Below, piece by piece: positions 1,850 to 13,242 of a DNA stretch of 64,000 nucleotides. Both the position numbers and the translations under genes were made by a program. The stretch spans positions 3,782,001-3,846,000 of the forward strand of contig NC_016818.1 of assembly GCF_000241955.1 (NCBI RefSeq), read 5' to 3'. The notes beneath the pieces are model-generated. The model worked only from the letters and a program-made list of their open reading frames with translations, ran no database searches and was not told the DNA's origin. The DNA comes from Rahnella aquatilis CIP 78.65 = ATCC 33071. GTDB lineage: Bacteria > Pseudomonadota > Gammaproteobacteria > Enterobacterales > Enterobacteriaceae. How positions within the stretch are numbered: position 1 is the first letter of the stretch; each line of letters begins with the position of its first letter.

Positions 1850-1880
1850 GCTTACTCCTCCCCCTGCGAAGGGGGAGCAG
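1850..1880. repeat. REP-like palindrome, left part interrupted by IS110
   Basis: CTCCCCC and GGGGGAG face each other across a TGCGAA loop. The unit breaks off at about 1880 and its continuation (GCTGGGAGGGGG) appears at 3068, after the IS. Related palindromes lie at 3148-3169 and 59881-59905. Confidence 0.6.
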
Positions 1881-1907
1881 CTGTGTCGAATGTCAATCCG
1901 GCAGCGA

Positions 1908-2846
1908 TTAATTTGCTGCCCATTCACGGCCATCTCGCACCATCGCATTCAGGATTGTCACCAGTTTCCGGATGCATGCTGTTAGCGCAACTTTCTTTAA
2001 CTTTCCCCGAGCGATGAGACCGTCGTAAAACCTCTTGATTTCCTTATTATTCTTTTTTGCCACCAGCGCAGCCATATACAATGCAGCCCGCACCGCTGAA
2101 CGCCCTCCCCAGATAGCTCGCTTCCCTTTGAGCTTTCCGCTGTCATGTGAATAAGGGCACACTCCCACCAGAGCACTAATTTTCCTCCGACTCAGTGTTC
2201 CTAATTCAGGCAAAAGTGCTAATAACGTCGCCGTCGTTGTTGGGCCTACGCCTTTGACACTGCTCAGGATTTTTGCTTTCTCCTGCCACAGTGGCATCAC
2301 ACGCAACTGTCGTCCAATGTCATCATCGAGATCTTTTATCTGGCTGTTCAGCCACTCGATGTGATGGTGAATGAGTTCCGCAACATCAAGATGGACACCA
2401 TCAAGGCGGTTTTTTTCCATCGTCCGCATATCGATCAACTGACGCCGTCTTGTCACCATTTGCGCAAGCCGCTGGGTCTGCTCATCACTTGCTACTGTCA
2501 GCGGCGGCAACACGACTTGTGCAAAGCGACTCAGCACCATGGCATCAAGTTTGTCCGTTTTCGCGAGATTCCCGAGCGATAAGGAAAAATGCTTAACCTG
2601 CCGTGGGTTTACGACCGATACGGGATAGTTTTCCACAGATAAATTTGCGGCTAACACACAGTGATAACGACCCGTAGCCTCCATGACTATCTGTGCAACC
2701 TCATAATTTTTAAGCAAATTAATGAAGTCGACATGGCCAGTTTGGTTGTTAGTAAACTTCTGATAGAAATTGCCAACGTTAATAAAAACATCGAAGGTTT
2801 CTTTAGAAATATCGACGCCGACAAATGCTTTTGGGGACTGATTCAT
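1908..2846 (-). CDS. IS110-family transposase (DEDD recombinase)
   Basis: This 312-residue protein catalyses excision and insertion of the element. The RuvC-like N-terminal domain carries the four acidic residues at D12 (VGVDIS), E56 (VMEATG), D98 and D101 (KTDKLDA). The C-terminal Tnp_20 domain has the helix-hairpin-helix stretch GVGPTTATLLALLPELG-like near 200 and the conserved serine motif PYSHDSGKLKG, with the likely nucleophile at S236. Length and motifs are intact, so it looks active. Known IS110 enzymes such as IS621 work with a bridge RNA encoded upstream, and the long upstream leader here fits that. Confidence 0.93.
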   Translation of the reverse strand: MNQSPKAFVGVDISKETFDVFINVGNFYQKFTNNQTGHVDFINLLKNYEVAQIVMEATGRYHCVLAANLSVENYPVSVVNPRQVKHFSLSLGNLAKTDKLDAMVLSRFAQVVLPPLTVASDEQTQRLAQMVTRRRQLIDMRTMEKNRLDGVHLDVAELIHHHIEWLNSQIKDLDDDIGRQLRVMPLWQEKAKILSSVKGVGPTTTATLLALLPELGTLSRRKISALVGVCPYSHDSGKLKGKRAIWGGRSAVRAALYMAALVAKKNNKEIKRFYDGLIARGKLKKVALTACIRKLVTILNAMVRDGREWAAN

Positions 2847-2849
2847 TAT

Positions 2850-3045
2850 TTCCCGTCCTTGTAGATACGGGCTGGTGCAGGCACCGCCCAGGCAGCTGTT
2901 CGGGTTAAAAATGAGCTGACGTAACGCAGGAATGCTCCCCCACGGGCTTGATGTCCCAGAGGCCGGACTTGCTGCTACATCAGTTTAGAACTCGTTAAAA
3001 TAATAGATGCTTGAAAGAGATTTCAATGATCAACGACGTAAATCA
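2850..3045 (-). ncRNA. Candidate IS110 bridge RNA
   Basis: This is the non-coding leader between the element end and the transposase, transcribed in the same direction. In that direction GGGGGAGCA (complement of 2933-2941) can pair with the right flank TGCTCCCCC. ACAGCT (complement of 2894-2899) repeats the donor sequence at the right end including the CT core. UACAAGG (complement of 2857-2863) can pair with CCTTGTA at the left end. The order right-target guide, left-donor guide, right-donor guide is that of IS621 bridge RNAs. A left-target guide is only weakly seen (2960-2967). Exact RNA ends are unknown. Confidence 0.55.
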
Positions 3046-3055
3046 ATCATTGAAA
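3021..3055. repeat. Perfect 10-bp inverted repeat near the IS110 left end
   Basis: TTTCAATGAT (3021-3030) and ATCATTGAAA (3046-3055) form a perfect stem with a 15-base loop, just inside the element end. It may be part of the 5' structure of the bridge RNA or a site bound by the transposase. Confidence 0.6.
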
Positions 3056-3142
3056 TGAACATACAAGGCTGGGAGGGGGTTTTAAGGACTAACACTTTGA
3101 CAAAGCAAACTTTAATTTTGGGATTCTTACCTTAATACCCCA

Positions 3143-3205
3143 CCCCAACCCTCCCCTTCGCAGGGGAGGGAGCCGATCGAGCTTTTCTCCTCCCCCTTCT
3201 CAGCG
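3143..3205. repeat. REP-like palindrome downstream of gcvP
   Basis: CCCTCCCC and GGGGAGGG flank TTCGCA at 3148-3169. A degenerate second unit (CTCCTCCCCC...AGGAGCAG) follows at 3188-3212. No T-tract follows on the gcvP strand, so it is a repeat rather than a standard terminator, though it may stabilise the gcv mRNA 3' end. Confidence 0.6.
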
Positions 3206-13058: not shown

Positions 13059-13242
13059 ATTTCTCTGAGATGTTCGCCAGCGGGCCCGTCCCCTGAGCCG
13101 ATAATTAGTACCAACAGAATGTGATGATCCGTAATCGGTGCGCATGCTCGGCCCGTCCGAGAAGCCTAAAGATTGCGACAGCACGTTCACCTTGAACCAT
13201 GGGTTCAAGGGTTACAGCCTGCGACGGCATCTCGGAGATTCC
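13059..13242 (+). ncRNA. ssrS: 6S RNA
   Basis: This 184-base segment follows E. coli 6S RNA from its 5' end ATTTCTCTGAGATGTTCGC to its 3' end GGCATCTCGGAGATTCC. The ends pair with each other, with the large central bulge between. 6S RNA binds sigma-70 RNA polymerase and down-regulates transcription in stationary phase. It lies between zapA and fau, as in other gamma-proteobacteria. No protein frame should be called across it; the fau start is downstream. Confidence 0.96.

Follow-up and report, generated by a model that had tools for sequence, protein, structure and literature searches.

Guide RNAs are known for the IS110 group of insertion sequences (PMC11208160, PMC11208158, PMC11187229), and the question raised by the locus analysed here is whether the non-coding leader of an IS110-group element in Rahnella aquatilis is such a bridge RNA and, if so, whether its guides read the repeat in which the element sits. 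The element lies in a 64,000-nt stretch of the genome (hereafter the window), the initial annotation of which had taken the leader for a left-end bridge RNA with guides arranged as in IS621 and a REP-like repeat as natural target. From comparisons of the element with its other copies, with empty copies of the repeat and with homologs, we consider it very probable that this is an IS621-like member of the IS110 group with a bridge RNA.

Boundaries of the element and its target repeat

A search of the element's own genome, made with the element and its surrounding DNA, recovered three full copies, identical across 1,192 bp, beside which there were 45 further short matches, all confined to the flanks. 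Each of the three has a chromosome position and a flanking sequence of its own, inside a different copy of one palindromic repeat, and the flank-only loci that were inspected are empty copies, whole or partial, of this same two-armed repeat, the arms of which (CCTCCCCCTTCGCAGGGGGAGG and CCCTCCCCTTCGCAGGGGAGGG) are about 80 bp apart. In the transposase direction the empty repeat L006 reads CCCCCTCCCAGC-CT-CCCCCTTCGCAG, the left junction of the element reads CCCCCTCCCAGC-CT-TGTATG and the right junction reads CACAGCTG-CT-CCCCCTTCGCAG; comparison of the junctions with this empty repeat thus places the cores at complement 3067-3066 and 1877-1876, and the single CT of the empty repeats against one CT at each end of the element indicates a core common to donor and target. 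The boundaries and the occurrence of three identical copies at the same target are in this way established at the level of sequence, and give the following features.

1876..3067, minus strand: whole IS110-group element, 1,192 bp with both CT cores, ends from empty repeats
1876..1877, minus strand: right core CT, from empty-site comparison
3066..3067, minus strand: left core CT, from empty-site comparison
1878..1884, minus strand: left donor (LD) ACAGCTG, at the right end of the element
3061..3065, minus strand: right donor (RD) TGTAT, at the left end of the element
1851..1875, minus strand: right part of the target repeat (CCCCCTTCGCAGGGGGAGGAG...), from empty-repeat comparison
3068..3172, minus strand: left part of the target repeat with the second palindromic arm, from empty-repeat comparison

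The REP-like repeat proposed as target is borne out by these empty repeats and by the three insertions at the same target; the repeat is palindromic and repeated, its extragenic position being seen for the window copy only. The pattern CCCCTCCCNNCCTCCNNCTTCGCAG occurs with at most two mismatches at 43 places in the element's own genome, compared with 0 for a reversed control, and with at most one mismatch in all 14 host-genus genomes examined; of 295 genomes sampled across the family, 5 contain it with zero mismatches, representing 2 of 154 genera (the second genus being g126). Rahnella as host genus agrees with a 10-kb piece of the 464-kb contig of this genome, which aligns to Rahnella megaplasmids with up to 94% identity across 96% of its length. 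The perfect GG variant is present at 2 of 3 occupied and 3 of 25 exact-pattern empty sites, numbers too few to claim a preference. The initial annotation had named one guide at different insertion sites as the observation that would count against it; the three copies have one guide and one target sequence, an outcome that does not refute it, and target specificity in the Rahnella genome rests on n = 3 since these are the only copies. A megablast comparison of the element with plasmids gave no match, and comparison with E. coli genomes gave a single weak match covering 11%. A separate search of the same genome for a REP-associated transposase, made with PF01797 (Y1 transposase), yielded 10 matches with 171-aa open frames (for example G000:C1:579956-580312), presumably, from their size, an IS200-like element, and nine of the ten score alike, which suggests that it was recently active.

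The recombinase and the joined-end promoter

Both domains of a bridge recombinase, the DEDD RuvC-like domain and the C-terminal Tnp domain with its conserved serine, are present in the protein of the element.

1908..2846, minus strand: bridge recombinase, 312 aa (Pfam PF01548, E=1.6e-23; PF02371, E=4e-17)

It matches the solved IS621 recombinase (8wt6) with E=1.8e-37 and 132 bits over about 300 residues, and its best solved-structure match is ISCro4 (9t56; E=1.2e-40, residues 7-307). Residues D12, E56, D98, D101, and S236 align with D11, E60, D102, D105, and S241 of IS621, which are the published catalytic residues of that enzyme (PMC11208158). Among the 14 genus genomes, no full-length close copy of the transposase was found outside the source genome; the best full-length match is 46% identical, and shorter fragments reach 59% (99 residues) and 76% (46 residues).

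In IS621 a promoter is rebuilt across the joined ends of the element (PMC11208160), and joining the ends of the Rahnella element brings together TTGACA-17-TATGTT, which has 10 of 12 consensus bases and is a predicted sigma-70-like promoter.

1891..1896, minus strand: -35 hexamer TTGACA at the right end, 17 nt from TATGTT (3058-3063) in the circle

The best promoter match lies at the same offset with the same 17-nt spacing in 51 of 61 joined ends, and a score of at least 9 of 12 is reached in 45 of 61 joined ends against 405 of 12,200 mononucleotide shuffles. These observations bear on whether the element, although of the bridge-RNA kind, might now be inactive and its identical copies the product of recent gene conversion or another duplication, as the presence of only three copies beside 43 near-matching empty repeat sites could suggest. 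We regard this as unlikely: the copies are at separate positions with different flanks, and all three retain an unbroken open frame together with the promoter parts and the aligned catalytic residues.

The leader as a bridge RNA

The non-coding ends of the element are unequal, with 219 nt upstream of tnp (the leader) and 30 nt downstream, from its stop codon to the right core, and the RNA lies upstream of tnp, so that the layout is not of the IS1111 type. A covariance model (R1), built from 44 homologs with the window excluded, matches the leader at 79.4 bits (E=9.1e-19), and its sole other match in the 64 kb has 6.8 bits (E=1.7).

2852..2989, minus strand: bridge RNA, match to model R1
3021..3055, minus strand: predicted 5' stem-loop of the bridge RNA (TTTCAATGAT ... 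ATCATTGAAA), from the fold
2971..2983, minus strand: 5' strand of the target-binding-loop stem, including a conserved unpaired A, from model R1
2916..2927, minus strand: 3' strand of the target-binding-loop stem, from model R1

The alignment of 44 leaders was drawn from 48, with L091 and L105 (both mis-trimmed), L120 and L136 omitted. Across it the 24-pair structure pairs 93.9% of cells, where shuffles average 75.7%, and in 174 cells both sides have changed, where shuffles average 44, while sliding the partners by 1–3 columns lowers pairing to 30–49%; for the target-binding-loop helix of the 44 homologs 93.4% of cells are paired. The model also found a bridge RNA in 24 of the 24 IS110 loci supplied to it, of which L001–L003 are the element's own copies and L041, L163, and L158 carry training leaders; the other 18 are additional loci, some of them sharing a genome. 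Single-sequence folds of the window RNA are not significantly better than shuffles (z of -0.61 and -1.23), and we have relied on the comparative evidence for that reason; where the initial annotation had asked whether a structured RNA is predicted at all, the comparative structure is very strong and the single-sequence fold is not significant. The model match, the helices and the guide-flank covariation described below uphold the reading of the leader as a left-end bridge RNA. At Rfam gathering scores the window contains no bridge-RNA family and only 6S RNA (RF00013, 138.4 bits; 13059-13242, plus strand), an ordinary housekeeping RNA.

Guides in the window element

The guides were located by placing the bases of the window on the IS621 numbering by way of what we take to be the letters of the IS621 bridge RNA. 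The resulting lengths and positions agree with the published layout, which has a nine-base left-target guide (LTG), a right-target guide (RTG) extendable to seven bases, an eight-base left-donor guide (LDG), handshake guides at 81-82 and 166-167 and a right-donor guide (RDG) with two flipped-out bases (PMC11208158).

2960..2968, minus strand: LTG GUCCGGCCU, ending in CCGGCCU
2935..2941, minus strand: RTG GGGGGAG, complementary to the core CT plus CCCCC of the target, 7/7
2933..2934, minus strand: target-loop handshake-guide positions CA, from alignment to the IS621 numbering (PMC11208158)
2892..2899, minus strand: LDG ACAGCUGC, equal to LD ACAGCTG plus core C, 8/8
2858..2866, minus strand: RDG AUCUACAAG, AU-CU-ACAAG, from the IS621 pairing scheme
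2856..2857, minus strand: donor-loop handshake-guide positions GA, from the numbering of PMC11208158

The target loop therefore runs LTG, hairpin, GU, RTG, CA (2934-2933) and the second loop LDG, hairpin, GU, RDG, GA, so that the order of IS621 claimed at the outset is indeed that of the element: left target, right target, left donor, right donor. The last 7 nt of the LTG are exact to the flank CCGGCCT of copies 2 and 3, where 7 of 9 bases are identical and one forms a wobble, while the window copy has the flank CCAGCCT, which places one G.T wobble in the last 7 nt and leaves 6 of 9 identical with two wobbles (position 1 being a mismatch and position 2 a wobble). The initial annotation had seen this guide only weakly, at 2960-2967, since the wobble of the window copy is absent from copies 2 and 3; it is genuine, spans 2960-2968 and, being exact over CCGGCCU to copies 2 and 3, is more than a weak match.

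On the right side of the target, the reported complementarity of GGGGGAGCA (complement 2933-2941) to TGCTCCCCC (complement 1871-1879) is exact to the letter, but only CTCCCCC is core and target; the remaining TG is an over-reading, two donor bases from the element's own end, and it is because seven bases of core and target are joined there by two of the element itself that nine match at the occupied junction. The match crosses from target to donor at the handshake positions, where the C is complementary to donor G7 and the A to donor T6, and guide predictions made from occupied junctions can thus overestimate the length of the target. In the donor-loop handshake the first base is complementary to target C7 and the second is not. 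The donor guides had been partly recognized. ACAGCT at complement 2894-2899 does equal complement 1879-1884, but the right core had been set with it at 1880-1879, 3 nt away from its real place at 1877-1876, and UACAAGG (complement 2857-2863) is exactly complementary to CCTTGTA (complement 3062-3068), but the RDG is discontinuous (AU..ACAAG), as in IS621, with 7 of its 9 nt complementary to CTTGTAT and 7 of 7 of the positions that pair in the IS621 scheme.

Chance occurrence of these words was gauged by dinucleotide shuffling, 20,000 times, of the 136 nt at 2850-2985 (minus strand). Singly, GGGGGAGCA appeared 30 times, TACAAGG 208 times and ACAGCT 1,000 times; the three motifs of the initial annotation appeared in order in 0 of 20,000 shuffles, as did, in order, the four guide words CCGGCCT, GGGGGAG, ACAGCTGC, and CTACAAG. 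By these counts ACAGCT is weak by itself and the ordered set is not due to chance.

Covariation of guides and flanks in homologs

Homologs came from genome contigs scanned with an alignment of five sequences; the best 80 of 343 relatives were kept, which together with L022, L041 and the window made 83 loci. Ten loci with an unparsable leader, one without an LDG, one with an unparsable RTG and nine without a right end within one mismatch of their own LDG were dropped, leaving 62 that were scored, the window among them. Because RTGs were required to end in AG, only the five variable bases were scored. All five pair with the right flank in 42 of the 62 loci and four of five in 14; the total is 279 pairs, whereas 10,000 permutations, ignoring relatedness among homologs, gave 107 on average and 139 at most. 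With one locus per guide, a reduction that removes repeated guides only and in which GGGGGAG is represented by L119 and not by the window, the 40 distinct guides make 174 of the 200 possible Watson-Crick pairs, whereas 10,000 permutations, with relatedness again ignored, average 59 and never exceed 84. The question whether the segment 2933-2941 covaries with the flanks is answered for its RTG by this result, which establishes the guide-flank covariation by sequence comparison.

The same result bears on two other explanations of the leader. Target choice could lie with the protein, the recombinase recognizing the palindrome and the complementarity of the leader arising by chance or as a side effect of repeats rich in G and C; with so G/C-rich a target an accidental match to five G is possible, and GGGGGAG alone turned up in 346 of 20,000 shuffled leaders. 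We consider this extremely improbable, since the guide-flank match across 40 distinct guides is far beyond permutation and includes A/T-rich guides (UUGUAAG for CT-TACAA and AAAAAAG for CT-TTTTT, among others). That the leader serves mainly to regulate translation of the transposase, as a 5' untranslated region and not a guide, is very hard to credit for a related reason: a leader with that role only would not vary together with flanks outside the element. The RNA match does stop directly before the start codon (2852 against 2846), which makes a cis effect possible, and PMC11208160 mentions an earlier view that small RNAs modulate expression of the ISPpu9 recombinase; regulatory and guide roles of one leader can coexist.

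The other guides were followed in the same loci. LTGs agree with left flanks in 398 matches over 60 loci; 1,000 permutations, relatedness ignored, averaged 308 and reached at most 330. A usable left end was available in 60 of the 62 loci, and in real and permuted sets alike the best offset was taken and the core included. The LDG equals the LD in 54 of 62, changed forms included (ACAGCTG, as in the window, ACAGTCG and ACGGTTG). The first base of the target-loop handshake pairs with donor base 7 in 61 of 62 loci, one of them by A-T and not C-G; since 60 of 62 are C-G, and the position is almost invariant, this is conservation and not covariation. The second position shows 7 A-T, 3 G-C, 20 G.T wobble and 32 unpaired, and without clear covariation there we count the first position alone as conserved.

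Six of the 62 loci have at most three of five RTG pairs (L149 with 0, L101 with 1, and L091, L093, L116, and L145 with 3), from which it follows that present-day flanks are not always the guided target. In L149, a Klebsiella relative with the RTG AUAUCAG, a changed guide, a moved flank or an off-target insertion would explain the mismatch. Individual loci may also be noted. L119 and L124, gamma- and betaproteobacterial metagenome elements, have the same RTG GGGGGAG with a right flank that is likewise CT-CCCCC, and L119 has GTCCGGCC of the LTG in common with the window element. L132, L133, and L135, three copies in one Dehalococcoidia genome, have one guide and one right flank, and their LDG (ACGGTTG) is one base apart from their LD (ACAGTTG).

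Relation to known systems

The element shares with IS621 a left-end bridge RNA with a 5' stem-loop, target and donor loops and the same guide order (PMC11208160, PMC11208158), as well as the CT core, the discontinuous RDG, the joined-end promoter and a target that is a REP element or, in the Rahnella case, a REP-like repeat. It differs in that its guides read a different repeat, its recombinase has clearly diverged, its RTG complementarity reaches 7 nt, compared with 4 in the IS621 RTG as published, and of the 9 nt of its LTG the last 7 match. Insertion into REP elements is known for IS110 elements such as IS621 (PMC11208160), and ISPsy8, ISPa11, ISPpu9, ISPpu10, ISRm19, and ISRm22 are reported to insert specifically into REP sequences (PMC1525189), although these are different elements with different REPs; ISPa11 belongs to the IS1111 group and has the guide RNA on the downstream side of its gene (PMC11187229). 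The independently named seekRNA, worked out on four IS1111 elements and ISEc21 and placed upstream of tnp in IS110 types, resembles the RNA of the window in coming from a non-coding region and in its short matches to each target strand (PMC11187229).

Nearer relatives are known from the protein. The likeness of ISCro4 (9t56) to the window recombinase is a protein-structure match, and an IS110 family RNA-guided transposase of Serratia sp. D1N4 (P0007) is 63% identical by protein comparison. L157, from another genus, is 57% identical, scores 98 bits for the bridge RNA and has the same LD (ACAGCTG), but its RTG GGGAGAG fits its own flank CT-CTCCC and so reads a different palindrome; in this one comparison it is the guide, not the protein, that goes with the repeat. 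In the Rahnella literature on IS110 or REP, taken as titles and abstract openings and with subscription papers mostly outside, nothing was found about the element or the repeat.

Proposed mechanism and implications

We now put forward a mechanism for the element along the lines of IS621, and we are highly confident in the bridge-RNA explanation as a whole. The element would be excised as a circle, and the joined ends would create the sigma-70-like promoter, from which a bridge RNA of about 200 nt would be transcribed from the left end. In the target loop, the LTG (ending CCGGCCU) and the RTG (GGGGGAG) would read CCGGC-CT-CCCCC at the edge of one arm of the repeat, while in the donor loop the LDG (ACAGCUGC) and the RDG (AU..ACAAG) would read the circle junction ACAGCTG-CT-TGTAT, and the 312-aa DEDD/serine recombinase would then swap strands at the CT core. 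The excision as a circle, the transcription, the RNA binding and the order of strand exchange are those we infer from IS621.

Both the kind of element and its mechanism are already known from IS621 of E. coli, of which this is a clean new example. What it adds is a naturally programmed bridge recombinase with a 7-nt RTG, exact boundaries and three identical copies, and these, together with many empty sites in the same genome, make it a practical test case for the way in which such guides locate repeats and are retargeted to them. With the exact repeat pattern in 2 of 154 sampled genera and a 57%-identical relative reading another palindrome, we tentatively suggest, with somewhat less than even confidence, that the guide is fitted to the host lineage. 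If so, the target loop of such elements would be altered to keep pace with the repeat families particular to each host, and wobble pairing would let one guide serve several variants of a repeat.
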